Virus record (IMG/VR): IMGVR_UViG_3300046004_001332
Coordinates: 1-40,104 of that record
Direction: 5' to 3' (one strand)
Origin: a virus
DNA length: 40,104 nucleotides
A program made the translations under genes and the position numbers. Under the pieces are notes generated by a model that was not told the origin of the DNA, made no database searches, and worked only from the letters and a program-made list of their open reading frames with translations. This document shows positions 2-12,506 of this stretch, one piece after another. How positions within the stretch are numbered: the stretch's first letter is position 1; the number at the start of each line of letters is the position of its first letter.

Positions 2-205
2 TGCCCGCAAATCCGCAGGGAGTTGGCGCGGGCGTATCAGTCCGGCGCGAACATGGACGAACTGCTCGCCATGGTGCCGCTGGCGACCCGGGCGCAGATG
101 GCGCGCAACATGATGAACCCCGCGTTCTGGTCGCACCTGACCGGCGCGGCCACGAACGTCATGGCCGACCCCCCATCCAACACCATGTCACCCCCGGCGC
201 AGTAG
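2..205 (+). CDS. 3' end of the ejection-type protein that starts at 37811
   Basis: This is the C-terminal part of the large protein that runs off the right end of the window. After the 126-base overlap the frame continues through SHLTGAATNVMADPP and stops at TAG 203-205. The joined protein would be 789 residues. An ATG at 23 could be mistaken for a separate 60-aa gene, but it lies inside this frame. The last 18 bases overlap the stop end of the leftward gene at 188-364, so the late and early transcripts converge with no visible terminator between them. Confidence 0.85.
   Translation, partial: CPQIRRELARAYQSGANMDELLAMVPLATRAQMARNMMNPAFWSHLTGAATNVMADPPSNTMSPPAQ
4..129. repeat. Left copy of terminal direct repeat
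   Basis: Bases 4-129 are identical to 39979-40104, an offset of 39,975. Bases 1-3 (atg) differ from the equivalent ggc at 39976-39978. Either the contig is a circular assembly with an overlap left at its ends, or the phage has a short terminal redundancy. Sequence alone cannot separate the two. The gene frame runs correctly through the join. Confidence 0.95.
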
Positions 206-364
206 GTCGCGGCGCTCGCGGGCGGCGCGCAGCTTGCACAGCCGGGTGTGCATGCGGGTCAGGTGCGAGGCGCGGGCCAGGCCGTTCGCCTCCTCCTGGA
301 TCGCCGCACGCAGGTCGGCCTCGGTCATCTTCGGCAGCCGGAGATGCAGTTCGGTCCAGTTCAT
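188..364 (-). CDS. Small unknown protein, end of leftward operon
   Basis: A 58-residue protein starting MNWTELHLRLPKMTEADL and ending in a basic helix-rich stretch (CKLRAARERRDLLRRG). It looks soluble, probably helical, with an acidic-to-basic charge gradient. I recognise no family. The ATG at 364 is preferred over an upstream TTG at 379. It is the last gene of the long leftward operon, and its 3' end overlaps that of the convergent late ejection gene. Its function is unknown. Confidence 0.6.
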   Translation of the reverse strand: MNWTELHLRLPKMTEADLRAAIQEEANGLARASHLTRMHTRLCKLRAARERRDLLRRG

Positions 365-369
365 AGTGG

Positions 370-567
370 CTATTCCCAAGAGAACCGGCGGATCGTCGCC
401 GGGCCGGAGGTGATGTTCTTGCTGGCCGTTCTCGCCGCGCTGGCGGCAACCTGCGCCTTCTTGTCCGCCATGAGATCGGCCCGGCGACGGAGCGACAGGC
501 TCTTGCCTCTCGGCCCAGCGTAGGGCGCAGGCGCGTATCGCCCGTTGTTGAACCCCTGCCCGCTCAT
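370..567 (-). CDS. Small basic unknown protein
   Basis: A 65-residue, Arg/Lys-rich protein beginning MSGQGFNNGRYAPAPYAG and containing a SLSLRRRADLMADKKAQ segment. The ATG at 567 follows the upstream gene's TGA (570-572) after two bases (TGAGCATG), which decides this start over an in-frame start further upstream. The net positive charge would suit nucleic-acid binding, but that is only inference from composition. No family recognised. Confidence 0.55.
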   Translation of the reverse strand: MSGQGFNNGRYAPAPYAGPRGKSLSLRRRADLMADKKAQVAASAARTASKNITSGPATIRRFSWE

Positions 568-569
568 GC

Positions 570-791
570 TCACGCCTCTAGCCAGACGCAAGGGAACGCG
601 CCTTCTGCGCCGGGCAGGCACGGTTCGGGCGTGTCGATGTAGCGGCGCGCGAACCCCCGAACCGGCGGGGGTATGTCGTACAGGAACGACCCGTCCGCGC
701 CGGGCTGCTCGTAGGGCCGGACGAACACAGGCATTGCCCCGGTCGGGTCTGCCGCGCGCAGCTTCTCGACCAGTTCTGCGGTGGTGGTCAT
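570..791 (-). CDS. Unknown 73-aa protein
   Basis: Starts MTTTAELVEKLRAADPTGAMP, a common beginning of small phage proteins of the form 'helix, then PVxV strand'. The C-terminal half (FLYDIPPPVRGFARRYIDT) has no motif I know. Its start overlaps the stop of the 50-aa gene upstream by 4 nt (ATGA), so the two are probably translationally coupled. Unknown function. Confidence 0.65.
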   Translation of the reverse strand: MTTTAELVEKLRAADPTGAMPVFVRPYEQPGADGSFLYDIPPPVRGFARRYIDTPEPCLPGAEGAFPCVWLEA

Positions 792-940
792 GGCGTCTTC
801 TCGCTCTTGGCTTTCATGTCGGCCATCTCGGCGGCGACGTACCTTTCCAGCGCCACGCGCATGGCCGGCGTATCCGGCAGGCTGAACATCCTCAATACGG
901 CAGGCACCACCACGGTCTGTGTGTACTCGTCGAGGGTCAT
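788..940 (-). CDS. Unknown 50-aa protein
   Basis: A 50-residue ORF, MTLDEYTQTVVVPAVLRMF at the N-terminus and a charged AEMADMKAKSEKTP tail. It overlaps both neighbours by 4 nt (ATGA at each end), which is the main evidence that it is real and sets its start at 940. A longer reading in the same frame extends into the helicase gene and is rejected. Probably a small helical protein; no family recognised. Confidence 0.65.
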   Translation of the reverse strand: MTLDEYTQTVVVPAVLRMFSLPDTPAMRVALERYVAAEMADMKAKSEKTP

Positions 941-1245
941 CGGTCGGTCTCGTTCAGGATGGCGTCGATCATGGCGGTGAAGTTCTCGCGCGCCTTTCGG
1001 TTCGCCTCGACGCAGTCGATGACCGGCGGAGTGGGCGACGAGAAGCCCATAATCTTCGCCAGCCAGTGCCATTGCCCGGCAGCGGCTACCGAGACGGTCG
1101 GCTCCCTGATAGCCGTGAGCGCGGCGCGGACCTGCACAGTGAAGTCGTAGGTGTCCTCCGGCGACACCGTCGTGCCGTCGGGCATCTCGCCGTGCGATGA
1201 AAGCCGCGACAAGGCCCAAGCGGCTTTGTTCAACATCGTCGTCAT
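937..1245 (-). CDS. Unknown 102-aa protein
   Basis: Starts MTTMLNKAAWALSRLSSHG. The N-terminal half mentions DGTTVSPEDTYDFTVQVRAAL and the C-terminal half is helical and charged (VIDCVEANRKARENFTAMI). This pattern is common among uncharacterised phage proteins, but I cannot assign a named family. It sits directly downstream of the helicase with a 4-nt overlap and upstream of the 50-aa gene with another. Confidence 0.7.
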   Translation of the reverse strand: MTTMLNKAAWALSRLSSHGEMPDGTTVSPEDTYDFTVQVRAALTAIREPTVSVAAAGQWHWLAKIMGFSSPTPPVIDCVEANRKARENFTAMIDAILNETDR

Positions 1246-2528
1246 GCAGCCAACTCCTCTGCGGCCAGTTCGGAGAGCGATCGCTTGTCGTGCAGCGACT
1301 GCCAGATCCGTTCGTCGATCGTCTTTTCAGTGAGAAACACATACGCCCACACCGGGTGCTTCTGCCCGCTGCGGTGCAGCCGCCCGACCGTCTGCTCGAA
1401 CAACTCCAGCGACCACGGCAGCGACACGAACACCACCTTGGACCCGCCGTGCTGGAGGTTGAGCCCATGGCCGGCGGACTTCGGGTGGACCAGCAGCATC
1501 TCGATCTGCCCGGCGTTCCACCGCTCAATAGCGTCGGCGTCGTCCAGCGTCTGCGCCAAGGGATAGCGCCTCTTCAGTTCGGCCAACTCCTCGCGGTAGT
1601 TATAGACCACCAGGGTGTTGGCCCGCTGGTTCTCGGCCAGCAACTCCTCGAGCCGGTCGAAGCGGTGCGACGAGAACCAGACCGGCGAGGGACTATACGC
1701 CCACCCGCCCGCCAGCTGCTGGAGCTTGCTGGTCATCGCCGCCGCCGTCAGCGCGGTCACCGTCTCGGTCCCGACCTGCGCGACATAGTCCCGCTTCATC
1801 TTGTCGTACGCCTTCATGTCCATCGTCGACCGCACCTCGACGACGTGCAGCGGCGGCAGGGTGTCGGCGTAGTCGCCGGGCTCCAGCACGAACGTCGCAG
1901 GCTTGATCTTGGCCATGATGCCCGCCAGGGCGCTCGGGCGGGCGACCCACTGGCCGAACTCGCGGCTGATGGGGATGAACCACGTCTGGAGGAACGCCCC
2001 CTTGGAGCGCCCGAGCAGGGCCTCGTCGATCACCTTGCACTGGCCGAAGACGTCCTCGAGGCCGTTCGATGTGAACGACCCGGTCAGGCCCCACCGGAAG
2101 CGCAAGGGGGCGAGCAGTTTGAGCAGCGCCTTGAAGCGTGCGCCGGACGGATTCTTGAGCCGGGTGAGTTCGTCGAACACCACCCCGTCGAAGCCGTCGA
2201 GCGACGGTAGGGTCTGGATCGTGTCGTAGTTGGCGACCACCACGTCAGCGCCGCTGGCGAACGCCGCGGATCTCTGCGCCGGCGTGCCTACGGCGACGGC
2301 CATGGACAGCCCCGGCGCCCACTTCTTGACCTCGACAGGCCAGACGTCGGTGCAGACCCGGCGCGGGGCGAGCACCAGCCAGCGCCGGGCGACGCCGTCC
2401 TTGACCATCGCGGCCATGGCGGTGAGGGTCAAGGCTGTCTTGCCGGCACCCACCGCCGCCAGCACCATCGCGCGATCGGTGGCGTACAGGAAGTCCGCGG
2501 CCTCATCCTGGTACGGGCGGAGTTTCAT
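1242..2528 (-). CDS. SNF2/DEAD-like superfamily 2 helicase
   Basis: A 428-residue SF2 ATPase, expected to move on or remodel DNA during phage replication or recombination. Visible motifs in order: N-terminal Q-type segment RPYQDEA (residues 4-10), Walker A AVGAGKTA (25-32), DELTRLKN Walker B (119-126), motif III GLTGS (147-151), a SAGHGLNLQ motif V, and motif VI QTVGRLHRSGQ near residue 390. The QTVGR..R.GQ signature is typical of SNF2-family phage helicases. Such helicases often travel with VRR-NUC, DUF2800 and PolA genes, all present here. Length is normal for the short phage type. ATG start at 2528; 4-nt overlaps on both sides. Confidence 0.92.
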   Translation of the reverse strand: MKLRPYQDEAADFLYATDRAMVLAAVGAGKTALTLTAMAAMVKDGVARRWLVLAPRRVCTDVWPVEVKKWAPGLSMAVAVGTPAQRSAAFASGADVVVANYDTIQTLPSLDGFDGVVFDELTRLKNPSGARFKALLKLLAPLRFRWGLTGSFTSNGLEDVFGQCKVIDEALLGRSKGAFLQTWFIPISREFGQWVARPSALAGIMAKIKPATFVLEPGDYADTLPPLHVVEVRSTMDMKAYDKMKRDYVAQVGTETVTALTAAAMTSKLQQLAGGWAYSPSPVWFSSHRFDRLEELLAENQRANTLVVYNYREELAELKRRYPLAQTLDDADAIERWNAGQIEMLLVHPKSAGHGLNLQHGGSKVVFVSLPWSLELFEQTVGRLHRSGQKHPVWAYVFLTEKTIDERIWQSLHDKRSLSELAAEELAA

Positions 2529-2992
2529 ACCCCCTCCCGCGCAAGAAGGGCGAGGATGGCGTCTGCTTTGCTGAAAGCGCGAGCCGGATATGCATCTGCG
2601 GACAAGCGAAGATCGGCTGCGCGTTCCTCGGTCTGGTGTCCGTCCTCGACCAATCGCGCGATCTCGGCATAGTGCCGGTCCCGCGTTCGGAAGGCGTCAG
2701 GACTGATAATCCGCGCCACCTTCTCCCGCAGCCCTACCATAGAGGGGGCTGGGGGAATGGGAGAGGGGGCGCGGCGGTTCCATGCAGCGATGGCGCGCGC
2801 TTGAGCGAACTCGACCCGGTCAGGCATCTCGCCTTGGATTTTGGCGTACTCACCGGACGCAGCGCAAGTGGTGCATTCGATGAAGTGGCCTGCCGGGGCC
2901 GGGTTCTTAGCAAGGGCGTAGTACGACATTTCGCCCTCACCCCCACAGAACGGGCAAGGCAGCAGGGCTTCCGGTGCTTGGCTGTCGGTCAT
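2525..2992 (-). CDS. Lar-like zinc-ribbon protein with C-terminal extension
   Basis: 155 residues. The first 75 or so match the Lar restriction-alleviation type of small zinc ribbon: LLPCPFCGG, then a second pair in IECTTCAASG, then the conserved QARAIAAWNRR end. Lar itself relieves host type I restriction; many phage proteins carry this domain with no tested role. After a Pro-rich linker (PSPIPPAPS) comes a helical domain with RTRDRHYAEIARLVEDG that I do not recognise. ATG at 2992 overlaps the upstream TGA (ATGA), which rules out the start six codons upstream. Confidence 0.75.
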   Translation of the reverse strand: MTDSQAPEALLPCPFCGGEGEMSYYALAKNPAPAGHFIECTTCAASGEYAKIQGEMPDRVEFAQARAIAAWNRRAPSPIPPAPSMVGLREKVARIISPDAFRTRDRHYAEIARLVEDGHQTEERAADLRLSADAYPARAFSKADAILALLAREGV

Positions 2993-3171
2993 CGGTGGGC
3001 CTCGTAGCATTGAACGGCGTCGCGAAGCCCTTGAAGGTATGCTTCGGACAGCAGCAGGATCAGGGGCCGGTCAGCGTCAACGAAGGGCCTGACCCGGCGG
3101 TGGATTACTTCTTCTTCGTCAGCGTTCGGCTGGACGACGCTGCGAACAGCGGGGGGTTTCGCGCGGCTCAC
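2989..3171 (-). CDS. Unknown 60-aa protein, GTG start
   Basis: Start chosen as GTG 3171-3169, which overlaps the upstream stop as GTGA and has a strong purine-rich ribosome site (GGGAGGGGAG) just upstream. An in-frame start at 3219 would sit deep inside the preceding gene. The protein has an acidic middle (NADEEEVIHRR), then a LILLLSEAYLQGLRDAVQCYE helix. No known family. Confidence 0.6.
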   Translation of the reverse strand: MSRAKPPAVRSVVQPNADEEEVIHRRVRPFVDADRPLILLLSEAYLQGLRDAVQCYEAHR

Positions 3172-3593
3172 TTCTCCCCTCCCTTCAGGCTTGCAAGGGC
3201 GGCAAGACCACGACGGCAAAGGCTTGTCGCTTCTTCCGCGTAGAACCGTTCAGTCTGACCGGGGTGGTCTTTGCGCAGGGCCACTACGTCCGAAAACGTC
3301 TTTGCGAACGCCTCCCGCATCATCTCCCTATCATGGGCGAGGGACTCGATCAGGGCGGCGGCTTCGGGGCCGTCAGGGTTGACGCGCTGGCCAAAGCCGC
3401 TTCTTGCGAGCGGATTAGACGGAATAGACCTCAGGCGTTTCAGCCGTTCCACCAGCCCAGCCACGTCCGAGGGAGCTGCGGGAATGGGAGAGGCGACCGC
3501 CTCCCACTTGTCGACTTCCAGCGCATGCTCGATGAAGCGGTACTCCTTGCCGCCTATCATGCGGACCTTGCCGGGAATTGGGCCGTCAGTCAT
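3168..3593 (-). CDS. Unknown 141-aa protein
   Basis: Begins MTDGPIPGKVRMIGGKEYRF, followed by a short beta-type segment, a Pro/Ala linker (ASPIPAAPSD) and a helical domain with VAGLVERLKRLRS and AAALIESLAHDREMMREAF. The linker resembles the PIPPAPS linker of the Lar-like protein, suggesting that these operon proteins exchange modules. Starts and stops overlap neighbours by 4 nt. Unknown function. Confidence 0.65.
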   Translation of the reverse strand: MTDGPIPGKVRMIGGKEYRFIEHALEVDKWEAVASPIPAAPSDVAGLVERLKRLRSIPSNPLARSGFGQRVNPDGPEAAALIESLAHDREMMREAFAKTFSDVVALRKDHPGQTERFYAEEATSLCRRGLAALASLKGGEK

Positions 3594-3676
3594 CGGTCAT
3601 CGCCTTTCAGGTATTGGATGAAGGCCCCCACGAAGGCCAAGGTCAGTAGCGCGAGGAGAACAGCGAGCGGGATCAT
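3590..3676 (-). CDS. 28-aa single-span membrane peptide
   Basis: ATG at 3676 is preceded by AGAAGGA at a good distance; the TGA overlaps the next start as ATGA. The peptide is MIPLAVLLALLTLAFVGAF followed by IQYLKGDDR: one hydrophobic span and a short charged tail, so inner-membrane with the tail probably in the cytoplasm. It is one of three such micropeptides in this genome. The role is unknown; interference with a host membrane protein is one possibility. Confidence 0.6.
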   Translation of the reverse strand: MIPLAVLLALLTLAFVGAFIQYLKGDDR

Positions 3677-3716
3677 CCTGGTTCCTTCTCGGGAGATTGT
3701 TGGCGGGCAGCGGCGG

Positions 3717-3983
3717 TCATCGGGCGTAAACGACGCGGCACTCGCCCTCGATAGTTGTCAAGCGTCCGTTCGCCGCGTCCACGAAGGTCAGGCGACCGCC
3801 CTCGTCGTAGATGATCTTGCCGGTGCTGGTCCCCTCAAAGGTGAGGGTTCCGTAGGCGTAGCAGGTGACGGCGGCGGGCTTGTCGCTGTAGTAGGCTTCG
3901 CGGCTTGCCTTTCCGGCTTCGGTGACTTCGCAGCCTGTCAGGGCAACGGCGGAAACGATGGCGGCGGTGGTCAGAATACGCAT
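3717..3983 (-). CDS. Small lipoprotein
   Basis: 88 residues with a type II signal peptide: MRILTTAAIVSAVALTGC, lipobox ALTGC with Cys18 as the predicted lipidated residue. The mature part is a small beta-rich domain (CYAYGTLTFEGTSTGKIIYD, GRLTFVDAANGRLTTIEG, CRVVYAR). The start at 3983 is supported by AAAGGAA about 8 nt upstream and by the signal peptide; an in-frame ATG at 4037 would bury it. A phage lipoprotein expressed early might act in superinfection exclusion, but nothing here proves it. Confidence 0.7.
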   Translation of the reverse strand: MRILTTAAIVSAVALTGCEVTEAGKASREAYYSDKPAAVTCYAYGTLTFEGTSTGKIIYDEGGRLTFVDAANGRLTTIEGECRVVYAR

Positions 3984-3987
3984 GGTG

Positions 3988-4101
3988 TCAGTTCCTTTGT
4001 TGGTGGGATTGAGTTGTTTGGTTGAGGACGCGCTCATTCCAGCGTTCGCTTGTAACGCCGCTCGCCTCGGCTACCTCCAGCCGTGCTAGAAGATCAGTCA
4101 T
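3988..4101 (-). CDS. 37-aa ORF, truncated relative of the 4389-4799 gene
   Basis: Starts MTDLLARLEVAEASGV. The first 13 residues match the start of the gene at 4389-4799, because both lie in the two copies of a 115-bp duplication. It then diverges and stops after 37 codons. The start overlaps the 72-aa gene upstream. It is either a remnant of a duplicated gene or a leader that couples translation to the lipoprotein gene 4 nt downstream. Whether the product matters is open. Confidence 0.45.
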   Translation of the reverse strand: MTDLLARLEVAEASGVTSERWNERVLNQTTQSHQQRN

Positions 4102-4177
4102 GTGACGTTCCTTTGGGTTCATCGGCAGCGGCTTTCATGCGGGCTGCGAACTGGCGATTGGTCTCGCCGGGCAGATT
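4063..4177. repeat. Copy A of a 115-bp imperfect direct repeat
   Basis: Aligns with 4761-4878 with about ten mismatches and a 3-base insertion in copy B. Each copy carries the 3' end of a small secreted-type protein gene (shared NLPGETNRQFAARMKA) and the overlapping start of the next gene (shared MTDLLARLEVAEA). It records duplication of a gene junction in the operon. Confidence 0.9.
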
Positions 4178-4312
4178 TTCGCATGGCTCAGGTGGCGGGG
4201 GCGGCGCAGTCGTTTTCCGCTCATCGTCGCTGGCGTCGATTTCAGGTCGCGGCGCGGCGGCAAGGGACATTACGGCGATTGACGCCAGCACCGAGTTGAT
4301 ATGCATCCTCAT
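4094..4312 (-). CDS. 72-aa secreted-type protein, paralogue of 4792-5037
   Basis: MRMHINSVLASIAVMSLAAAP looks like a signal peptide or short membrane anchor. An acidic, Pro-rich middle follows, then a C-terminal NLPGETNRQFAARMKAAADE shared almost exactly with the 81-aa gene at 4792-5037. The N-terminal parts differ. ATG 4312 overlaps the micropeptide stop (ATGA). Unknown function; the conserved tail is probably the functional part. Confidence 0.65.
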   Translation of the reverse strand: MRMHINSVLASIAVMSLAAAPRPEIDASDDERKTTAPPPPPEPCENLPGETNRQFAARMKAAADEPKGTSHD

Positions 4313-4392
4313 TCCACAGCTCCTTCAGCCCGGATAACGACTGCTATTGCGATCAGGCCAAGCGCAAGGAGGGGGGCGGCAAGGGCGATCAT
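4309..4392 (-). CDS. 27-aa single-span membrane peptide
   Basis: MIALAAPLLALGLIAIAVVI followed by RAEGAVE: one membrane span and a short polar tail. Both ends overlap neighbouring genes by 4 nt, which sets the start at 4392 rather than a longer in-frame reading. It resembles the 28-aa peptide at 3590-3676 in size and layout but not in sequence. Unknown role. Confidence 0.6.
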   Translation of the reverse strand: MIALAAPLLALGLIAIAVVIRAEGAVE

Positions 4393-4799
4393 TGCTCGGC
4401 TCCTTTGGCGCGAAGGATTGCTACAGCGGTGAACGAAAGCTGGTTCGCCCCGTTCGGCTGGACGGTCATCCCGTCGAACCCGAGACGCCTTCCGAGCGCG
4501 CACCACGCATCGTTCGCGGCTTCCTGCGGCGAGCGCGGCATCCCGACGTTGAGCATGATGAGCGGCGTAGAACGGGCCGAGTTTATGGCCGCAATGATGC
4601 CGTCAAAGTCGGCTTGCGACATGAGGAACGGGATGCGCGTTCCAGCCTTGTTGCCTGCCCTTGCCGGACAAGGGCCGGGCGCAGCATCATCATGCGCCGC
4701 CCGGCAGTAGAGGCACGGGTCGCCGTAGTGCGCGGTTGCTGAACGTTGGGCAAGGTCGCCCGCCTCGGCTACCTCTAGCCGTGCTAGAAGATCAGTCAT
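4389..4799 (-). CDS. Unknown 136-aa protein
   Basis: Starts MTDLLARLEVAEAGDLAQ, a common N-terminus among small phage and prophage proteins. Residues 30-50 hold a Cys cluster (PCLYCRAAHDDAAPGPCP) that could bind a metal. The C-terminal part contains SPQEAANDAWCALGRRLGFDG and ends AVAILRAKGAEQ. The ATG at 4799 is chosen over 4820 because the same start is preserved in the duplicated copy at 4101. No named family. Confidence 0.7.
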   Translation of the reverse strand: MTDLLARLEVAEAGDLAQRSATAHYGDPCLYCRAAHDDAAPGPCPARAGNKAGTRIPFLMSQADFDGIIAAINSARSTPLIMLNVGMPRSPQEAANDAWCALGRRLGFDGMTVQPNGANQLSFTAVAILRAKGAEQ

Positions 4800-4878
4800 G
4801 TGACATTCCTTTGGGTTCATCGGCTGCGATGGCTTTCATGCGGGCTGCAAACTGGCGGTTCGTCTCGCCGGGGAGATT
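4761..4878. repeat. Copy B of the 115-bp imperfect direct repeat
   Basis: Partner of 4063-4177. This copy has three extra bases (one codon) inside the shared C-terminal tail of the 81-aa gene, so the frame is kept. That suggests both copies are under coding constraint. Confidence 0.9.
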
Positions 4879-5037
4879 GTCGCCAGCGACCTCGACTGGC
4901 GGATGAACGGCTTTCCGGTCGCGGATGCGTTTGCGCTCGCTGTTGGACAGACCGCCGCCGACAAATCCTGCGTCACCAAGCGCCGCGCCAGCCAGTGCAG
5001 CCATCGCCGCCGCGTGAGTTGCGAGTAGGCGGCTCAT
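4792..5037 (-). CDS. 81-aa secreted-type protein, paralogue of 4094-4312
   Basis: Hydrophobic start MSRLLATHAAAMAALAGAAL, a Gly-rich stretch (GDAGFVGGG), a basic segment (SERKRIRDRK) and the shared tail NLPGETNRQFAARMKAIAAD. The tail match to the 72-aa protein is nearly exact at protein level and lies in the DNA repeat. Start 5037 overlaps the upstream stop (ATGA). Unknown function. Confidence 0.65.
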   Translation of the reverse strand: MSRLLATHAAAMAALAGAALGDAGFVGGGLSNSERKRIRDRKAVHPPVEVAGDNLPGETNRQFAARMKAIAADEPKGMSHD

Positions 5038-5342
5038 CCCTCATCTCCACTATTCCTGGTGGCGGTGGCCTTGGAGATTGCTGCGTCCATAACGGCGAGC
5101 GCGGCGGGGCTGGTCATCGCGTCCCGTGTGCTAATCAGCGCCTCCAGCAGTTCAGGAGCGGCGGCTATCAGGCGGGCGTTGGCGGTGTCGGTGACAGGGT
5201 CATAGGCGGCCAGCCACATATTCTCGTAGCTGGCGCACGCGATAACCTGACGACCGCCCGGACCATAAAGGTCGAAGGTCGATTTGCCCGGCTCGTATCC
5301 CGGCCCGAAATCCCAAGGCCCCGGCGTATGTGCCCCGCTCAT
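5034..5342 (-). CDS. HTPGPW-type phage protein of unknown function
   Basis: 102 residues with two signatures of a widespread uncharacterised phage/prophage family: HTPGPWDFGPG at the N-terminus and TANARLIAAAPELLEAL in the second half. The part between them is a small beta sheet (QVIACASYENMWLAAYD). These proteins occur in early, accessory regions of many phages, and no function is established. 4-nt overlaps with both neighbours. Confidence 0.75.
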   Translation of the reverse strand: MSGAHTPGPWDFGPGYEPGKSTFDLYGPGGRQVIACASYENMWLAAYDPVTDTANARLIAAAPELLEALISTRDAMTSPAALAVMDAAISKATATRNSGDEG

Positions 5343-6277
5343 TGTCCCCCCTCCAGAGCAGTAGCTTTGGAGACGACAGATCGGGCTTCTTCAGCACCCT
5401 CTTCCGCGCAATCTGCGAGACCGTTGATCGTGGCTTCGTTCATGAAAGCCGAGTCTTGAACGACGGCATCCTCGCGGATTTCATCGAAACGCTTTGCCGC
5501 CTCTTTCAGCGCCTCCAGCAGTTCAGCATTCACCCCCTCTACAGGAGGGATTGGTTCACTCGCCTTGCGGCTCGTACCCACCGAGACTGAGGCTGCGGGC
5601 GGGGGTGGCAGGGGCATCCAGTGGGTGACGTGGCACGAACCGTCTGTCGGGTTGCACGGCGTCGCTCCCTCGGGAACCGTGCGCGGCCAGCAATGATTGT
5701 CGCCACCGATCAGCCGCTTTATCGCGACCGGTTCGTCTCTCGTCAGCCGGGCCAGCGGGCGATAGACCAGCACCTCCCTTCCGTCGATGGGAGCCGTCTC
5801 AATCGGTTGCCAGCCTACAACACCCGTTCCGTGACCCTCACCGGGGACGGACGGCGAAGCCGGGAGTGAACCCTTATCTGCGGCTTCGGAGACAAGGCGG
5901 AAGGCGATGATTGAGGCGACCCCGATCTCTTTCCACGAAAACTGTTCGGACGGCTCGGGAATGGTGCTGTCAAAGAAGACCCCACCGTCGCCCCGGCATC
6001 GGACAAATATCCGCCGCCCCGGCACCGGGTTCTCCCCTCCGCTCCATGAAATCCAGCCGTCATCTCCGCGCTCGCCGATGTAAGAGAGGTTTTCAATCGC
6101 CGCGCCGTAGCCCTCGCCACTCGATAGAGTGACAAGAAGGGTGCCGCGCCCGATGCCGCCGAACGCCTCCTCGAAGGTGCAGACGCCTTCCTTGACGTGC
6201 TGCAACACACTCCGTCCTGCCGTAAGCAGCGGCACCATGTCCGCCGTCAGCGGAGACCCTGATTTCAGATTGGTCAT
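5339..6277 (-). CDS. Multi-domain early protein with DUF551-like domain
   Basis: 312 residues. The first 135 or so are a domain I do not recognise (GTLLVTLSSGEGYGAAIENL, GWISWSGGENPVPG). Residues around 154-230 match the DUF551 pattern: GWQPIETAPIDGREVLVY at the start and HVTHWMPLPPPP at the end, with HCWP between. The C-terminal part (NAELLEALKEAAKRFDEI) is a helical segment found in many phage early proteins. It looks like a fusion of operon modules. No enzymatic role is known for DUF551. Confidence 0.75.
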   Translation of the reverse strand: MTNLKSGSPLTADMVPLLTAGRSVLQHVKEGVCTFEEAFGGIGRGTLLVTLSSGEGYGAAIENLSYIGERGDDGWISWSGGENPVPGRRIFVRCRGDGGVFFDSTIPEPSEQFSWKEIGVASIIAFRLVSEAADKGSLPASPSVPGEGHGTGVVGWQPIETAPIDGREVLVYRPLARLTRDEPVAIKRLIGGDNHCWPRTVPEGATPCNPTDGSCHVTHWMPLPPPPAASVSVGTSRKASEPIPPVEGVNAELLEALKEAAKRFDEIREDAVVQDSAFMNEATINGLADCAEEGAEEARSVVSKATALEGGQ

Positions 6278-6513
6278 TGGTCAGCTCCAGTCCAGGTGAA
6301 AGAGCGAGGGGCGGCAGGCTTGCGGTGGGTAGCTCCGCGGTTCCATGTTGCCTTGTCGCGCCGGCGCGTGCCGATCAGGCCAAGGCGGTTCAGTTTTCCG
6401 ATCACGGCGTTGCGGGTGCCGATGTTCAGGGCGCGCGTTATTTGCCCCGTCGTCTTGCCCTCGGCCCACAAGGCGCGAAGGGCCCCGATGCGACCGGGCG
6501 TCCACACGTTCAC
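6274..6513 (-). CDS. gcrA: GcrA-family transcription regulator
   Basis: 79 residues, GTG start at 6513 overlapping the upstream stop (GTGA). The N-terminal 46 residues match the DNA-binding domain of GcrA: VWTPGRIGALRALWAEG, then QITRALN, then the hallmark RNAVIGKLNRLGL. GcrA is an alphaproteobacterial cell-cycle regulator that binds RNA polymerase with sigma-70 and favours promoters with methylated GANTC. The phage copy has a short basic tail (RRRDKATWNRGATHRKP) and probably lacks the full C-terminal RNA-polymerase-binding region of host GcrA, which is much longer. It could redirect or mimic host cell-cycle transcription. Confidence 0.88.
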   Translation of the reverse strand: MNVWTPGRIGALRALWAEGKTTGQITRALNIGTRNAVIGKLNRLGLIGTRRRDKATWNRGATHRKPAAPRSFTWTGADQ

Positions 6514-6779
6514 AGGTTCTGTATCCACTGGTCGACATCCTCTTTGCTCGACAGGCAGGCGTACATCTGCCCCAGGCGTTTCATTTCGTCGGCGAAGATC
6601 CGCTGGAGCGGCATCAGTCGCCCGCCGGGGCGCTTCAACTCCACGAACCACGTCTGGCCCGGCAGGCAGACGATCCGATCGGCGACACCCCGATGGCTGG
6701 GGCTGGTGAACTTGAACGCGACCCCGCCGGCGCCCTGCACCGACTTGCGGAAGTATGCCTCGACGTCCCTCTCAAGCAT
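6510..6779 (-). CDS. VRR-NUC domain nuclease
   Basis: 89 residues, the size of stand-alone phage VRR-NUC proteins. PD-(D/E)xK core visible: Glu in MLERDVEAYF, GVADRIV with the catalytic Asp, and FVELKRPGG with the ExK pair, followed by QRIFADEMKRLGQ. Such nucleases cut branched DNA and commonly sit beside SNF2 helicases in phage replication modules, as here. Start 6779 overlaps the upstream stop as ATGA. Confidence 0.9.
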   Translation of the reverse strand: MLERDVEAYFRKSVQGAGGVAFKFTSPSHRGVADRIVCLPGQTWFVELKRPGGRLMPLQRIFADEMKRLGQMYACLSSKEDVDQWIQNL

Positions 6780-6997
6780 CACCGCACCGTTGCGGGTTCG
6801 ACGACGAAGTCGGTGCGCGCGAAGCGGTGCCAGAAGTAGCCGAGGTCCGTGCGGAGCGCGGGAGCCGCGACGCCGCCCGGCTTGCGGGCCAACCCTCGGG
6901 TGTCGAACTGCGCCGCCCACCCGCGCTTGCGCGGCTGTAGCAGCGCCCGCTGCCCTTGTAGATGGGCCAAAGGCCCGACGTACGTTCCTGCGGGCAT
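6779..6997 (-). CDS. Unknown 72-aa protein, first gene of leftward operon
   Basis: Starts MPAGTYVGPLAHLQGQRALL, with an aromatic-rich C-terminal half (DLGYFWHRFARTDFVVEP). The ribosome site AGAGGAGAG precedes ATG 6997. As first gene of the operon it follows the divergent control region at 6998-7097. Similar short proteins accompany replication genes in other phages, but I cannot name a family. Confidence 0.65.
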   Translation of the reverse strand: MPAGTYVGPLAHLQGQRALLQPRKRGWAAQFDTRGLARKPGGVAAPALRTDLGYFWHRFARTDFVVEPATVR

Positions 6998-7097
6998 GTC
7001 TCTCTCCTCTGTGATGCCCCGACCCTACGCAACAAAAATCAGGATTGCAACGCTAAATGTTGTGTGTATGGTGGTGGGCAGAAAGGGAGACACTGAA
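6998..7097. promoter_or_regulatory. Divergent control region between leftward and rightward early operons
   Basis: Both operons must start here. Rightward candidate: TTGCAA at 7045-7050, 16-bp spacer, TATGGT at 7067-7072. Leftward candidate on the other strand: TTGCAA overlapping the same bases, then a T-rich spacer. The stretch at 7030-7072 is A+T-rich compared with its surroundings. Both assignments are weak consensus matches. Confidence 0.4.
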
Positions 7098-8225
7098 ATG
7101 AACCACTCCAAGATCGTCGGCGGTTCGACCGCCGCCCGTGTGATCCACTGCCCCGGCTCGGTGGCGCTGGTCGACAAGATGCCTGCGGACGAGGGCTCGT
7201 CCTACGCCAACGAGGGCAGCCTGCTCCACGAGGCGATCGCGGTGGTGCTGGACACCGCCTGCCCGCCCGAGGACATGGTCGGCTTCGAGGCGCACGGCCT
7301 GGTGCTGACCGAGGAACTGCTCGAGCGCAAGCTGCGCCCGGCGCTGGACCTGCTGGCCGAGTACGACCCCGAGAAGAAGCTGGTCTACATCACCGAGGCC
7401 ACCGTCGACTTCGGCGACCTGCTGCCGGGTGTGTTCGGCTCGTCCGACATCGTGGCCCGGCTGGACGGGCGCGCCGTCATCCTCGACTGGAAGTTCGGCG
7501 ACGGCGTCATGGTCGACGCCGAGGAGAACATGCAACTGATGTTCTACGCCGCCGCCGCCATGCGCACGCCGGCCTGCCAGTGGGCGTTCGAGGGTGTGAC
7601 CGAGGTCGAGTGCGTCATCATCCAGCCGCCGTACATCCGCACATGGACGACCCCCGTCGAGCGCATCCGGAAGTTCGAGCGCCAGCTGGCCCGCGCCGTC
7701 GCCTCCTCGGCCCTGCCGAACGCCCCGATCAACATGGGCGACCACTGTCGCTGGTGCGCCGCCAAGCCGATCTGCCCGGTCAAGACCGGCCAACTGGACC
7801 GCGCCCGCGTCGCGGCCATGAAGGAGATCGACGTCGACAAACTGACCGAGTACCTGGCGGCGGCGGAGGGTATCGAAGATTTTATCGCCGCCTGCCGCGC
7901 GCTGGCCTATCGTATGCTGGAGAACGGCGTGCCAGTGCCCGGCTACAAGCTCGTCAACAAGCGCGCCACTCGTTATTGGGCCGACCCCTCGACCGCGCTG
8001 GCGCGGCTGAAGGATCTCGGCCTCGCAGAGACTGACGTGACCAAGACCGACCTGTTGTCGGTGGCGCAGGCCGAGAAGGTGCTCAAGAAGCACAAGATCG
8101 CCCTGCCCGCCGACATGGTCGTCGCGGTCTCGTCGGGAACCACCCTCGCGGTGGAAACGGACAGCCGACCCCCGGCTGTTCTCATCGGGCAGCAGCTTGC
8201 TGCGGCCCTTGGTAAGATAGGATAG
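7098..8225 (+). CDS. DUF2800-type PD-(D/E)xK nuclease
   Basis: 375 residues; ATG 7098 with AAAGGGAG upstream. Pattern of the phage DUF2800 family, related to Cas4/RecB nucleases: an N-terminal GGSTAARVIHCPGS motif, EGSLLHEA, then GSSDIVARLDG with the metal-binding Asp, VILDWKFGDG with the DxK pair, QLMFYAAA, and a Cys cluster HCRWCAAKPICPV typical of an Fe-S or zinc site. The C-terminal third is helical (YWADPSTALARLKDLGL). In known phages DUF2800 sits next to an ssDNA-binding protein and PolA, the same order as here. Likely an exonuclease in replication or recombination. Confidence 0.85.
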   Translation: MNHSKIVGGSTAARVIHCPGSVALVDKMPADEGSSYANEGSLLHEAIAVVLDTACPPEDMVGFEAHGLVLTEELLERKLRPALDLLAEYDPEKKLVYITEATVDFGDLLPGVFGSSDIVARLDGRAVILDWKFGDGVMVDAEENMQLMFYAAAAMRTPACQWAFEGVTEVECVIIQPPYIRTWTTPVERIRKFERQLARAVASSALPNAPINMGDHCRWCAAKPICPVKTGQLDRARVAAMKEIDVDKLTEYLAAAEGIEDFIAACRALAYRMLENGVPVPGYKLVNKRATRYWADPSTALARLKDLGLAETDVTKTDLLSVAQAEKVLKKHKIALPADMVVAVSSGTTLAVETDSRPPAVLIGQQLAAALGKIG

Positions 8226-8228
8226 ACT

Positions 8229-8870
8229 ATGAGCAATCTGACTGTGTTCGGCGGCGCGGGTCTCCCGTCCGTCGGTGACCTGACCTCGGCCCTGCGCCGG
8301 GTCGAGACGACCACCCAAACGGGGGGCGGTGGCATCATCCTCAAGATGGACAAGACCGGCCACTGGGTGTTCGGCGCTGACCAGACCGAGGTCGAGCCGG
8401 ACAGCGTGTGGGCCGTCAACCCGTTCTCCTTCGTCCACGGCTATATCGCGTGGGGCGACGGTGACGTGCTCGGCGAGCACATGGTGCCGGTGACCGAGCC
8501 GCTGCCCGAGACGGGGCCTGCCCCCGACGGCGCCAAGAAGGGCTGGGAAGTGCAGATCGGCGCGTCCGTGAAGTGCGTCTCGGGCGAGGACGCGGGCCTC
8601 GACGCCCGCTACTCGGCCACCTCGGTCGGCGGCAAGAAGGCCCTGACCGCGCTGGGTCTGGCGATCGCCGCGCAGGTCGAGAAGGACCCGGCCAACCCGG
8701 TGCCGCTGGTCGTGCTGAAGAAGGAGCACTACCAGCACAAGTCCTACGGGCGCATCTTCACCCCGGTGTTCGAGGTGACGAAGTGGGTCGCCATGGACAA
8801 GGAGCCGGAGCCGGATGAGGCGGCAGCCGAGGTCGAGCCGTCTGACCGCCGCCGCCGCCGCGCCGCGTAG
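8229..8870 (+). CDS. Unknown replication-module protein, possibly ssDNA-binding
   Basis: 213 residues. Beta-rich body (GGIILKMDKTGHWVFGAD, SFVHGYIAWGDGDVLGE, WEVQIGASVKCVSGED, GRIFTPVFEVTKWVAMD) and a strongly acidic then Arg-rich tail (EPDEAAAEVEPSDRRRRRAA). By position between a DUF2800 nuclease and the polymerase it could be the phage ssDNA-binding protein, but that is inferred from gene order; the tail does not look like a standard SSB tail. It starts 3 nt after the nuclease stop. Confidence 0.7.
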   Translation: MSNLTVFGGAGLPSVGDLTSALRRVETTTQTGGGGIILKMDKTGHWVFGADQTEVEPDSVWAVNPFSFVHGYIAWGDGDVLGEHMVPVTEPLPETGPAPDGAKKGWEVQIGASVKCVSGEDAGLDARYSATSVGGKKALTALGLAIAAQVEKDPANPVPLVVLKKEHYQHKSYGRIFTPVFEVTKWVAMDKEPEPDEAAAEVEPSDRRRRRAA

Positions 8871-8885
8871 TGGAGAACGCGAAAG

Positions 8886-8901
8886 GGGGGCTTCGGCCCC
8901 C
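8886..8901 (+). terminator. UUCG hairpin after the 8229-8870 gene
   Basis: Six GC pairs closing a C(UUCG)G tetraloop: gggggc, ttcg, gccccc. No T-run follows, so it may be a weak terminator or an RNA-stabilising hairpin between the replication genes and the methyltransferase. Confidence 0.5.
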
Positions 8902-8919
8902 TGAGTAGCGGCCAATCAC

Positions 8920-9699
8920 ATGAACGTCCTAGATTTATTCAGCGGCATCGGCGGGTTCAGCCTCGGGCTGGAACGCGCAGGAATGCGAACCGTCGCCTTC
9001 TGCGAGATCGACCCTTTCTGCCGGCGCGTGCTGGCGCGGCACTGGCCGGAGACGCCCTGCTATGACGATGTCAGAAACCTCACTGCCGAACGACTGGTCG
9101 CAGACGGCGTTGCCGTTGACGTCGTCTGCGGCGGCTTTCCCTGTCAGGACATCAGCAAGGCCGGCCCTCGAACCGGCCTCGCCGGGAAACGGTCTGGACT
9201 GTGGTTCGAGTTCGCCAGGATCATCGGTGAGGTCAGGCCGAAGTTCGTTATCATCGAAAACGTCACAGCCCTTCGCCATCGGGGACTGGACGTCATTCTC
9301 CGGTTCTTCGCTTCGATCCGGTATGATGCGGAGTGGCACTGTGTTCCCGCTGGCGCCCTTGGCGCGCCTGACATACGGGACCGGATTTGGGTCATCGCCT
9401 ACCCACAGCATCCCGACGCCGACGGCGCAGGATCATATCCAGCGGACCTGCACCAGCAAGGAGGTTCTGAACTTTGTGACCGGCAAGAGCGTGTCGCTGG
9501 ACCGATTTTGCAGGCGCTACCCCGACGCCGCGAAGGGGTGGGATCAGGAGCCTGCCGAGACTGGCATCCCGAACCCGGAATACGGCGAGTGGTTGACCGG
9601 ACTTCCGAGGGGGTGGACCGAACCAGGGTCATCGGAAACGCCGTGAAGCCAATCATCCCTGAGATCATCGGTCGCGCCCTCATGGCGGCAGCCAAATGA
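8920..9699 (+). CDS. DNA cytosine-C5 methyltransferase
   Basis: 259 residues. Motif I DLFSGIGGFSLGLERAG (5-21), motif IV GGFPCQDIS with catalytic Cys75, motif VI IIENVTAL (112-118), motif VIII APDIRDRIWVIA (149-160), motif X GNAVKPIIPEIIGRAL (239-254). It transfers a methyl group to C5 of cytosine, probably to protect phage DNA from restriction. The target-recognition region between motifs VIII and X is only about 75 residues, short for the family, and overlaps a second recognisable frame (9062-9646). The start codon lies inside a CCAATCACA leader motif. The last 4 nt overlap the polymerase start. Confidence 0.9.
   Translation: MNVLDLFSGIGGFSLGLERAGMRTVAFCEIDPFCRRVLARHWPETPCYDDVRNLTAERLVADGVAVDVVCGGFPCQDISKAGPRTGLAGKRSGLWFEFARIIGEVRPKFVIIENVTALRHRGLDVILRFFASIRYDAEWHCVPAGALGAPDIRDRIWVIAYPQHPDADGAGSYPADLHQQGGSELCDRQERVAGPILQALPRRREGVGSGACRDWHPEPGIRRVVDRTSEGVDRTRVIGNAVKPIIPEIIGRALMAAAK
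9062..9646 (+). CDS. Alternate-frame ORF inside the methyltransferase gene
   Basis: A 194-codon ORF, +1 relative to the methyltransferase frame. It has features I associate with a phage protein family usually found with or fused to Dcm genes: a Ser-rich PVRTSARPALEPASPGN segment, LRSGMMRSGTVF, IPTPTAQDH, and an end reading NPEYGEWLTGLPRGWTE followed by SETP. These are too specific for chance translation of the other frame. It may be a remnant of a longer Dcm fusion shifted in frame, or a real overlapping gene. I cannot tell whether it is translated; no strong ribosome site is seen at ATG 9062. Confidence 0.4.
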   Translation: MTMSETSLPNDWSQTALPLTSSAAAFPVRTSARPALEPASPGNGLDCGSSSPGSSVRSGRSSLSSKTSQPFAIGDWTSFSGSSLRSGMMRSGTVFPLAPLARLTYGTGFGSSPTHSIPTPTAQDHIQRTCTSKEVLNFVTGKSVSLDRFCRRYPDAAKGWDQEPAETGIPNPEYGEWLTGLPRGWTEPGSSETP

Positions 9700-12506
9700 C
9701 CGTCCTCTGGTGCGACTTTGAAAGCAGAAGCCGCTGCGATCTCAAGGCGAAGGGCGCCTACAACTACGCCCGCGACGGCTCCACCGACGTGCTGTGCATG
9801 TCGTGGGCGTTTGACGACGAGGACGTGCAGACATGGCTGCCCGGCCAGCCGTTCCCCGAGCGGGTGCGCGACCACACTGGCCAGATCCGCGCGCACAACG
9901 CCGCGTTCGAGCGGCTGATCTTCTGGTACGTCCTCCAGATCGACTACGCCTTGGAGCAGTTCTACTGCACCGCGACGCAGGCCCGCGCCAACTGCGCGCC
10001 CGGCAGCCTTGAGGACGTGGGCCGGTTCGCCGGCGCGTCCATGCGCAAGGATCACCGCGGCGGGCAACTGGTCCGCGCGCTGTGCATCCCTCGCCCCGAC
10101 GGCACGTTCAACGACGACCCGGCGCTGATGGCCGAGCTCGTCGCCTACTGCGAGCAAGACGTCCGCGCGATGCGGGCGATCTCGCAGACGCAGCGCCAGC
10201 TGTCCGCCGAGGAACTGGCTGACTACCACGTCAACGAGCGGATCAACGACGCCGGCGTGCTGGTCGACGTGCCGCTGGCCAGGGCCGCGCAGGTCTACGC
10301 CGCCGCCGAGCTTGAGGAGATCCAGGCGCTCGTCGCCAGCGTGACCGAGGGCGTCGTCACCTCGGTGCGCAGCCCCCGGATGCGGGAGTGGGTGTGGGAC
10401 CGCGTCGGCCCGCAGGCGCAGGGCCTGATGACCGTCACCAAGGGCGACGAGACCAAGCGGTCGATCGACAAGAACGTGCGCGCCTCGCTGCTGGTGCTGG
10501 CCGAGGAGAACCCCGACGAGGTGCCCGCCGACGTGGCCGACGTGGTCCAGTGCGCCGACGACCTGTGGGCGTCGAGCGTGGCCAAGTTCGCCCGCATGGC
10601 GGCGCTGGCCGACGACGAGGACCATCGCGTGCGCGGGGCCTTCGTGTTCGCCGGTGGCGCGGCGACCGGGCGGGCGTCCAGCTACGGCCTCCAGGTCCAC
10701 AACTTCGCCCGCAAGACGGCCAAGGAACCCGAGGCGGTGCGTCACGCCATGGTCAGAGGACACCAGATCGTCCCGGCCTACGGCAAGCGGGTCACCGACG
10801 TGCTCAAGGGCATGCTGCGCCCGGCGCTGGTCGCCGCGCCCGGCAAGATGCTGGTCACGGCGGACTGGTCAGCGATCGAGGCGCGGGTGAACCCGTGGCT
10901 GTCGAACTGCCCCTCCGGCGAAGCCAAGTTGGACCTGTTCCGCACCGGCGAGGACATCTACAAGGTCAACGCCGCCGCGACGTTCGGCGTGCGCGTTGGT
11001 GATGTGGACGACCCGCAGCGCCAGATCGGCAAGGTGCAAGAGTTAGCCTGCATAGCCGAAGACACTATGGTGTGGACCAGTAACGGGCTTAAGGCTATAG
11101 TGGACGTTCGGTTGAGCGATAAGCTATGGGACGGGGAGCAATGGGTAAGCCACCAGGGTGTAGTGAGCCGGGGCGTCAAGCCGACTATCAGCGTGTGCGG
11201 AATGTCCGTCACGGAGGACCATCTGTTGCTGGTCAAGTCGGGGTGGCTCGACGCAAAGACGGTACTTTCGTGCAGCAAATACCAGACCCAAGCGTTGGAG
11301 ATCGGTTTGGCGACCTCACCGTCGTGGGGTCGACCGCTACGCTCGACACGCGCCGCATGGTGTCTGTCCAGTGCGCATGCGGGGCCGAGCCCCACGCCGT
11401 CTACATCTACAACCTGCGCAAAGGCGCATCTACCCGGTGCAACACCTGCGCCAAGAAAGCCTCTGGCTACTGGCGGAAAGACTACTTCAAATACGCCGCG
11501 GCTTGTCCAGAAGACAGCCATAGGCGGCGGCTTCTTGGTCGCTTGTCAGCCTGCAAGAACCGCTGCCACAATCCGAAAGACCCTGCATACGCCAACTACG
11601 GCGGGCGGGGCATCTGCGTCTACGAGCCGTGGCGATCCGACAAAGCCGCTTTCTTGCGATATGTCATCACGCTTGAGGGGTGGGATGAGCCTCGTCTCGA
11701 ACTGGATCGCATCGACGTGGACAAGGGCTACGAGCCGGGCAATTTGCGGTTCATCACGCGCAAAGCCAACATGGCAAACAGACGATCCGTCCAAGACCTG
11801 CAAGCCCGATGCGATGCCCTTGAGGCGCGTCTACGACATTGCACATGCGGGGCCTAGAAACCGCTTCATGGTGGCGACGCCGGAAGGGCAGGTGATCGTC
11901 CATAACTGTGGCTTCGGTGGGTCGGTCGGCGCGTTCACCGCCATGGGCCGGGTCTACGGCGTCGTGCTGCCCGAGGCGCAGTCGCGCCGGATGGTCGAGG
12001 CATGGCGCCGGGAGAACCCGTGGGCTGTGGACCAGTGGAGCGCGCTGGAACGGGCCTACACGACCGCCATGCGCCAGCCGGGTCACGAGATCACCGCCGG
12101 GCGGGTCACCTACCTCTACGACCGTCAGCACCTGTGGTACGCGCTGCCGTCAGGGCGGGTGCTGTGCTATCCTTTCGCCCGCTTCGATCGGGACGGCATC
12201 TCCTATGCCAAGGCGGCGTGGAAGCCAGCGCAGGACGCGACGGAGTGGCCGCGCGCGCGGCTGTGGCACGGGCTGGCGTGCGAGAACATCGTCCAGGCGG
12301 TCGCCAACGACCTGCTGCGTGACGCGCTACGCCGCCTTGACGCGGCGGGGCAGAGGGTCATCCTGCACGTCCACGATGAGATCGTGATCGAGGGTGACGA
12401 GACGGCAGCCGAGGTGCTGGCGCAGGTCATGACGACCGCGCCGGCGTGGGCGGCAGGGCTGCCGCTCGCGGCAGAAGTCAATATTCGGGAGCGGTACGGA
12501 AAATGA
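9696..12506 (+). CDS. polA: Family A DNA polymerase with 3'-5' exonuclease, containing an intein
   Basis: 936-residue precursor; 650 after removal of the intein (residues 452-737). Exonuclease motifs: DFES (7-10), AHNAAFERL (67-75), YCEQDVRAM (151-159). Polymerase motif A TADWSAIEARV with Asp390; motif B begins RQIGKVQELA and continues after the intein as CGFGGSVGAFTAMG; motif C LHVHDEIVIE with Asp894. It is the replicative polymerase of the phage. The intein splits motif B, so unspliced protein should be inactive. Start overlaps the methyltransferase stop and the end overlaps the next gene, both as ATGA. Confidence 0.93.
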   Translation: MTVLWCDFESRSRCDLKAKGAYNYARDGSTDVLCMSWAFDDEDVQTWLPGQPFPERVRDHTGQIRAHNAAFERLIFWYVLQIDYALEQFYCTATQARANCAPGSLEDVGRFAGASMRKDHRGGQLVRALCIPRPDGTFNDDPALMAELVAYCEQDVRAMRAISQTQRQLSAEELADYHVNERINDAGVLVDVPLARAAQVYAAAELEEIQALVASVTEGVVTSVRSPRMREWVWDRVGPQAQGLMTVTKGDETKRSIDKNVRASLLVLAEENPDEVPADVADVVQCADDLWASSVAKFARMAALADDEDHRVRGAFVFAGGAATGRASSYGLQVHNFARKTAKEPEAVRHAMVRGHQIVPAYGKRVTDVLKGMLRPALVAAPGKMLVTADWSAIEARVNPWLSNCPSGEAKLDLFRTGEDIYKVNAAATFGVRVGDVDDPQRQIGKVQELACIAEDTMVWTSNGLKAIVDVRLSDKLWDGEQWVSHQGVVSRGVKPTISVCGMSVTEDHLLLVKSGWLDAKTVLSCSKYQTQALEIGLATSPSWGRPLRSTRAAWCLSSAHAGPSPTPSTSTTCAKAHLPGATPAPRKPLATGGKTTSNTPRLVQKTAIGGGFLVACQPARTAATIRKTLHTPTTAGGASASTSRGDPTKPLSCDMSSRLRGGMSLVSNWIASTWTRATSRAICGSSRAKPTWQTDDPSKTCKPDAMPLRRVYDIAHAGPRNRFMVATPEGQVIVHNCGFGGSVGAFTAMGRVYGVVLPEAQSRRMVEAWRRENPWAVDQWSALERAYTTAMRQPGHEITAGRVTYLYDRQHLWYALPSGRVLCYPFARFDRDGISYAKAAWKPAQDATEWPRARLWHGLACENIVQAVANDLLRDALRRLDAAGQRVILHVHDEIVIEGDETAAEVLAQVMTTAPAWAAGLPLAAEVNIRERYGK
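11049..11906 (+). other. Intein in DNA polymerase motif B
   Basis: 286 in-frame codons. Splicing residues all present: Cys1 (codon 11049), block A CIAEDTMVWTSNGLKAI, block B with TxxH in SVTEDHLLLV, block F RVYDIAHAGPRNRFMV, block G VIVHN with penultimate His and terminal Asn, then Cys as the first C-extein residue (codon 11907). The two Hint parts cover only about 70 and 30 residues; the roughly 180 residues between them read as low-complexity nonsense in this frame because that DNA encodes the HNH protein in another frame. Expected to excise itself and ligate the polymerase. Confidence 0.92.
11270..11857 (+). CDS. HNH-type homing endonuclease nested out of frame in the intein
   Basis: 195 residues from GTG 11270; ATG 11141 (after GGGGAG) or 11126 are alternatives that extend into Hint-N. 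Pattern of the common phage HNH family: VGDRFGDLTVVG, a zinc ribbon with VQCACGAE and RCNTCAKK, then LSACKNRCHNPKD, ANYGGRGICVYEPW, and LELDRIDVDKGYEPGNLRF followed by ITRKANMANRR. The first His of a canonical HNH is Arg here (DRID), as in many relatives. It is read in frame +2 relative to the polymerase, and its TAG at 11855-11857 lies within intein block F. It probably cuts inteinless polymerase alleles to spread the element. Confidence 0.85.
   Translation: MQQIPDPSVGDRFGDLTVVGSTATLDTRRMVSVQCACGAEPHAVYIYNLRKGASTRCNTCAKKASGYWRKDYFKYAAACPEDSHRRRLLGRLSACKNRCHNPKDPAYANYGGRGICVYEPWRSDKAAFLRYVITLEGWDEPRLELDRIDVDKGYEPGNLRFITRKANMANRRSVQDLQARCDALEARLRHCTCGA

Follow-up and report, generated by a model that had tools for sequence, protein, structure and literature searches.

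How a single stretch of phage DNA can meet three demands at once, preserving the residues of a Hint splicing domain, a linker free of stop codons, and a nuclease, is the question raised by the locus described here. It lies in the IMG/VR virus record IMGVR_UViG_3300046004_001332, whose entire 40,104 bases constitute the window analyzed, and comprises a DNA polymerase gene that carries an intein, within which a protein of the HNH family is encoded in another reading frame. In the usual view, inteins gain mobility through an endonuclease domain fused in frame between their splicing halves. We consider it highly probable that the present element, which sits in the O-helix region of a phage family A polymerase, is instead a mobile intein with its endonuclease encoded by a separate, overlapping gene. 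The polymerase frame is organized as follows:

9696-12506, plus strand: DNA polymerase open reading frame (ORF), 936 amino acids, open throughout
9696-11048, plus strand: N-extein, family A polymerase (3'-5' exonuclease and start of the polymerase domain), ending in RQIGKVQELA
11049-11273, plus strand: N-terminal half of the Hint domain (Cys1 at 11049-11051, TEDH at 11211-11222), polymerase frame, with a hidden Markov model match in all relatives
11328-11771, plus strand: linker in the polymerase frame (intein residues 94-241), stop-free and predicted to be disordered, with a predicted local distance difference test score (pLDDT) <50
11787-11906, plus strand: C-terminal half of the Hint domain, polymerase frame, with block F VYDIAHAGPRNRF and block G VIVHN (Asn at 11904-11906)
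11907-12506, plus strand: C-extein of the DNA polymerase, starting with the +1 Cys (CGFGGSVGAF)

The ORF matches phage family A DNA polymerases (PF00476, E=4e-16; PHROG 17, E=1.6e-82), and the intein occupies 286 residues (11049-11906) between RQIGKVQELA and CGFGGSVGAF. A first-pass annotation, made from the letters of the window, had claimed a complete intein in this frame, and the full motif set is indeed present: Cys1, the block B motif TEDH (T55-H58), block F, VIVHN, and the +1 Cys. Cys1, T55, and H58 are invariant across 53 inteins, and among 160 inteins with an out-of-frame HNH, Cys1 is retained in 160, the final HN in 157, and a +1 Cys or Ser in 159. In an AlphaFold2 model of the polymerase-frame intein, both Hint halves reach pLDDT 96-98 and the linker stays below 50; the top Foldseek matches of the Hint model are the mini-inteins DnaX, Ssp DnaB, and gp41-1 (best E 1.9e-4). 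Sequence motifs and modeled Hint fold together place the element among the inteins, from which excision and ligation of the exteins would be expected. A relative without an intein (L005), in which the polymerase reads RQVGKVQELACGFGG, supports the predicted splice junction. The layout is neither that of a canonical intein, as the endonuclease is not in frame with the Hint domain, nor that of a split intein, as the host gene is not broken into two ORFs and 9696-12506 remains a single one.

The second protein is read in the -1 frame relative to the polymerase:

11141-11857, plus strand: HNH-family ORF, 238 amino acids from ATG 11141, with its stop codon TAG at 11855-11857
11126, 11243, and 11270, plus strand: alternative HNH starts, namely ATG 11126 (a 243-amino-acid ORF, 11126-11857), GTG 11243, and GTG 11270
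11128-11138, plus strand: purine run GGGACGGGGAG resembling a Shine-Dalgarno (SD) sequence, before ATG 11141, which also codes for the Hint motif W-D-G
11372-11449, plus strand: zinc-ribbon-like CxC...CxxC of the HNH-frame protein, with invariant cysteines
11597-11752, plus strand: core YGGRGI...LDRIDxxxGYEPGNLRF of the HNH-frame protein, conserved in alignments

The first-pass annotation had recognized an HNH-type protein with a zinc ribbon and the YGGRGI and DRID...NLRF motifs in this other frame, and profile searches agree: the ORF matches PHROG 374 'HNH endonuclease' (E=5.8e-35), 3377 (E=6.2e-22), and 2081 (E=7.6e-20), and, besides PHROG 374, three more HNH or restriction-endonuclease families are matched. 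The protein read from 11243 folds at pLDDT 91.6 (AlphaFold2), and its closest models in the Foldseek BFVD collection are viral proteins, several of them annotated as HNH endonucleases (~1e-12). By these matches, its sequence belongs to the phage-type HNH homing endonuclease family. The stop codon lies within block F, where the same annotation had put it, with TAG 11855-11857 overlapping the P-R codons. As a side observation, Salmonella phage LPSE1 has an annotated 247-amino-acid uncharacterized protein (BFVD A0A1L7DRS1) that matches this frame, unlike other Jerseyviruses, where only the polymerase or the intein is annotated at the locus. The sole relative found in bacterial genomes that lies outside an intein occurs in Desulfovibrio sp. 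OttesenSCG-928-A18 (L250) and is possibly a free-standing member of the family.

An obvious explanation for such an overlap would be an error of sequencing or assembly, in which one missed base on each side shifts an ordinary in-frame HNH domain out of register. Such errors do occur, and frameshifts are found elsewhere in the gene in two loci (L080 and L064). A tblastn search with the HNH frame matched 765 phage records, and its best places, in Pseudomonas phage MR14, Vibrio phage 97.13, EBPR siphovirus 2, and Salmonella phage SETP3, lie in the polymerase gene with the HNH in the -1 frame. Scanning of IMG/VR with alignments of the HNH protein and of the Hint N-half (HintN), together with 84,980 bacterial and archaeal species genomes, gave ~250 loci, which were reduced, by removal of identical Hint sequences, to 165 non-redundant inteins from IMG/VR, named phages, and bacterial genomes. 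The HNH lies in the -1 frame in 138 of these, and a divergent HNH lies in the +1 frame in 22; the rest are three or four mini-inteins without HNH, one split gene, and one frameshifted locus (L080). Genuine cases of an in-frame HNH numbered 0 among the 165, the very homologues that would have told against the first-pass annotation. The HintN query alone, which is blind to the HNH, returned 47 -1-frame inteins, 12 +1-frame inteins, 4 mini-inteins, and 0 in frame, such that separate searches with the HNH frame and with Hint, as first proposed, both give the out-of-frame layout. Isolate carriers include Erwinia sp. OLFS4, Taishania pollutisoli, Allobaculum, and Actinomycetaceae zg-1166, and in the complete annotated phages SETP3, Ent2, and MR14 the polymerase stays one open coding sequence across the HNH. 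The same frame relation thus recurs in more than 160 non-redundant inteins, whether drawn from isolates, metagenomes, or bacterial genomes, and stop codons are avoided in the polymerase frame, as detailed below. Because independent genomes share the relation, a missed or extra base is ruled out as its cause, and we give this explanation a negligible probability.

The relatives also reveal how varied the arrangement is. Two adjacent insertion points occur in the O-helix region of the polymerase, QELA|CGFG and GKA|CELG. The +1-frame inteins, exemplified by L128, L152, L099, L117, and L143 as polymerase inteins with divergent HNH proteins, and by the named phages Shewanella SFCi1 (L237), Caulobacter GB2A (L238), and Gardnerella AB1 (L239), sit mostly at VEN|CTQA or YGGK|CVEN sites; phage AB1 shares the insertion site of the window, ELA|CGYGG. 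This type is spread over at least two Hint clades, and the placement of two of its groups in separate clades implies that HNH genes were gained or replaced more than once, so that several acquisitions or replacements are likely. The distribution as a whole marks the out-of-frame HNH as an old and widespread arrangement in inteins.

Both frames bear the marks of selection. Substitution positions were compared in 20 pairs of related loci, and stop codons were counted in 55 loci. The third polymerase codon position takes 53% of the substitutions in the N-extein, 52% in the Hint N-half, 66% in the Hint C-half, and 54% in the C-extein, whereas 58% of those in the linker fall at the second polymerase position, which is the third position of HNH codons. 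The linker therefore behaves in evolution like an HNH gene, and the regions around it like a polymerase that carries an intein, which is the outcome of the two-frame comparison that the first-pass annotation had recommended. When HNH codons are redrawn randomly among synonyms, ~200-260 polymerase-frame stops over the HNH are expected in total, and 54 of the 55 loci have 0; all seven stops seen fall in one split locus (L069). The third frame, as a control, has 560 stops against 463-625 expected. The window alone has 0 stops against ~2.2-2.4 expected (P ~0.05), which is weak, so the claim of stop avoidance rests on the family. These patterns support separate selection on the polymerase and HNH frames, in line with the earlier suggestion that one DNA stretch holds a splicing-type intein, an open nonsense linker, and a nuclease-family protein. 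A decayed element, in which the intein alone is maintained and the HNH frame is a relic, is accordingly hard to reconcile with the data: a deletion derivative (L091) shows that loss by deletion happens, yet HNH third positions take most of the linker substitutions, the cysteines C44, C46, C66, and C69 and the core residues are invariant in 50 divergent sequences, and the protein is confidently modeled. We regard decay as very improbable.

Where the HNH protein begins was judged by positions counted from Cys1, with +77 corresponding to 11126 and +92 to 11141 in the window. Upstream of Cys1+77 the -1 frame is unprotected (90 stops versus 51 expected); from Cys1+92 to +191 it contains 2 stops versus 53.7 expected and is open in 52 of 54 -1-frame loci, while the same stretch in the same frame is open in only 2 of 21 +1-frame inteins. 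ATG occurs at Cys1+77 in 33 of 54 loci (7.6 expected from codon usage) and at Cys1+92 in 35 of 53 (16.7 expected on the same basis), and the conserved start at Cys1+92 is ATG or GTG. Given protection from +92 and ATG enrichment at both positions, the start very probably lies within the Hint N-half, so that the two proteins overlap at both ends; ATG 11141 is most likely the start, and 11126 is possible. GTG 11270, where the coding stretch given in the first-pass annotation begins, is unlikely as the main start, as is GTG 11243, because the frame is already protected from +92; a start at Cys1+194, where CTG is depleted (5 of 54 loci versus 19.9 expected), would be secondary at most. Upstream of Cys1+92, a duplex energy of <= -5 kcal/mol is found in 98% of -1-frame loci. 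The strength of the SD-like run was set aside as proof of the start, since the run consists of the W-D-G codons; it is in part a by-product of this Hint protein motif.

Programmed -1 ribosomal frameshifting could in principle replace internal initiation, yielding a fusion of the polymerase N-terminal part (PolN), HintN, and HNH. The position of the HNH in the -1 frame and the overlap of its ORF with the Hint N-half would suit such a mechanism. However, canonical slippery heptamers occur in only 4 of 55 loci and at no fixed place, the HNH of another lineage lies in the +1 frame, again at related sites, and the enrichment of ATG at +77 and +92, with protection of the frame only downstream, points to starts. 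Frameshifting is thus distinctly unlikely.

Taken together with the overlap, the favored reading of a mobile intein would work in several steps. In the polymerase frame, the mRNA would be translated into a precursor whose class-1-type Hint domain, with ~150 unstructured linker residues in its middle, would splice itself out and join a polymerase of ~650 residues. From the internal start in the -1 frame (ATG 11141, perhaps 11126), the same mRNA would also yield a free HNH-family protein of ~238 residues, which, in mixed infections, may cleave the insertion site in polymerase alleles that lack the intein, and repair would then copy the whole intein into the cut allele. Comparisons between relatives point to such mobility. 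Between SETP3 and L055, the intein is 0-7% divergent, compared with 13-35% for the extein upstream and 8-17% over most of the downstream part; between L068 and L077, the figures are 7-17% for the intein versus 24-52% outside; and in the pairs L004/L085 and L009/L010 the inteins are likewise more alike than the flanking polymerase. The change in divergence in such pairs sits at the intein borders. Intein and HNH are transferred as one unit with the Hint domain, as these profiles support, and cutting of the empty site by the HNH protein may drive the copying. A 100-base profile of L004 against L055 shows a near-identical Jerseyvirus intein in polymerase exteins 13-35% apart upstream, which suggests a recent transfer of this intein together with its HNH.

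Several observations weigh against this reading. The HNH motif reads LDRID...YEPGN rather than the usual DH...N, with DR in place of DH; profile searches gave the HNH-frame protein no significant nuclease match in Pfam or NCBIfam; and neither fold nor profile comparison gave a significant PDB nuclease, the PacI HNH reaching only E 0.79. The HNH label rests on PHROGs and on viral Foldseek models annotated as HNH endonucleases, and, as no solved nuclease matches and DH reads DR, nuclease activity is predicted from family membership. The SD-like run at +92 encodes a conserved W-D-G and occurs as well in +1-frame inteins, which make no use of it. The P-values and expectations given above treat related loci as independent, and at least one close pair (L026/L034) displays the opposite pattern, with the intein more divergent than the extein.

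The replaced first His (DRID) and the missing PDB fold match would suit an HNH protein that is selected without being the homing enzyme of the intein, having been domesticated as a DNA-binding or regulatory protein, or as a nuclease with another target such as competitor phages; endonucleases can serve in phage competition. Against this, the intein moves as a unit relative to the exteins and relatives with empty sites exist (L005), a deletion derivative without the HNH core keeps its Hint domain (L091), and different HNH subfamilies have repeatedly been joined to Hint domains, which fits homing. A non-homing role is therefore unlikely, and the mobile intein with a separate, overlapping endonuclease gene remains the reading that we adopt.

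Two derivatives illustrate what may follow when this arrangement breaks down. In L069 (1209-4091), PolN-HintN (1209-2834) and the C-terminal counterpart HintC-PolC (3354-4091) are separate ORFs, and the HNH gene (2702-3454) overlaps both; by its layout this locus is a natural split intein with the endonuclease in between, and the seven stops in the former linker frame exclude a single base error. In L091 (2143-2574), a mini-intein, the -1 frame still codes for the two ends of the HNH protein, with the core between them deleted, which identifies this mini-intein as a loss product rather than an uninvaded ancestor. The first-pass annotation had envisaged a free-standing endonuclease just invading a mini-intein and had looked to relatives lacking the insert; mini-inteins do exist, but at least the one in L091 arose by deletion of the HNH core, and the arrangement itself is old, widespread (138 plus 22 inteins), and moves with Hint. 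We lean slightly toward a broader generalization, a class of phage inteins in which an overlapping gene, translated from a start of its own, supplies the mobility enzyme independently of the spliced protein, an arrangement that would have arisen or been refilled several times in both alternative frames, and in which loss of the stop-free linker would lead to split inteins (L069) or mini-inteins (L091). Separately, in Escherichia phage ST4 (L240, 684-4106), the polymerase I gene is split around an HNH ORF; this locus was rejected as the same element, being without Hint halves, and may be either a group I intron or a free-standing insertion.

In the window, the polymerase gene belongs to a replication module, with an exonuclease, a DNA methyltransferase, and a primase-like gene as neighbors, and terminase and portal genes lie further along.

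An endonuclease carried as its own gene would separate the selfish enzyme from the spliced polypeptide. Surveys that translate the host frame alone miss such an endonuclease, and mobility may persist in inteins annotated as 'splicing-only', such as the one in Salmonella phage Ent2. The family also provides >100 natural examples of strongly constrained overlapping coding, and the path from a mobile intein to a split or mini-intein can be tested directly with L069 and L091.

Among known systems, canonical large inteins (with LAGLIDADG or in-frame HNH) resemble the present element in having a Hint domain, a host enzyme of nucleic-acid metabolism, and an endonuclease between the Hint halves, an example being cyanophage CL131, whose dCTP deaminase intein has HintN and HNH_3 in a single frame (PMC6293099). 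The window differs in that its endonuclease stands outside the intein polypeptide, in an overlapping gene in the -1 frame (in relatives also +1). The Jerseyvirus polymerase intein (SETP3, vB_SenS-Ent2) is related to the element described here; its insertion point lies four residues further upstream, at GKA|CELG rather than QELA|CGFG, and its HNH frame is unannotated. The Ent2 record describes this intein as 'encoding splicing domains', whereas it credits a neighboring helicase intein with a LAGLIDADG endonuclease. Dassa et al. reportedly described, in 2009, fractured genes in which a free endonuclease gene lies between the parts of a split intein, and their endonuclease family is said to differ from the HNH of the window. 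Only L069, with PolN-HintN, HNH, and HintC-PolC as three ORFs, resembles them, whereas the window and nearly all relatives keep one continuous polymerase ORF across the HNH. Intron-encoded and free-standing phage HNH proteins (PHROG 374, 3377, 2081) share the family, the zinc ribbon, and the YGGRGI...DRID core, yet they lie in introns or between genes, and the HNH of the window is nested in an intein frame. The papers covered by our literature search contain no description of an out-of-frame endonuclease inside an intein; related cases could lie outside that set, in the Gosselin et al. 2025 preprint (cited in PMC11855218), which treats actinobacteriophage inteins of 'non-canonical architecture'. 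The closest described case comes from DNA methylases of mycobacteriophages, with their ShiLan domain and Pacc40 'hidden HNH' insertions (Arsenault, Gosselin, Gogarten 2025, PMC11855218), where an HNH ORF likewise lies out of frame inside a phage gene whose frame stays stop-free, and where a disjunct distribution likewise suggests homing. Its authors found no Hint or other splicing element and considered the insertion to be retained in the host protein (PMC11855218), whereas in the window a complete Hint domain flanks the HNH; and the ShiLan HNH starts 18 bp into the insertion, while that of the window begins inside the Hint N-half and ends in block F.

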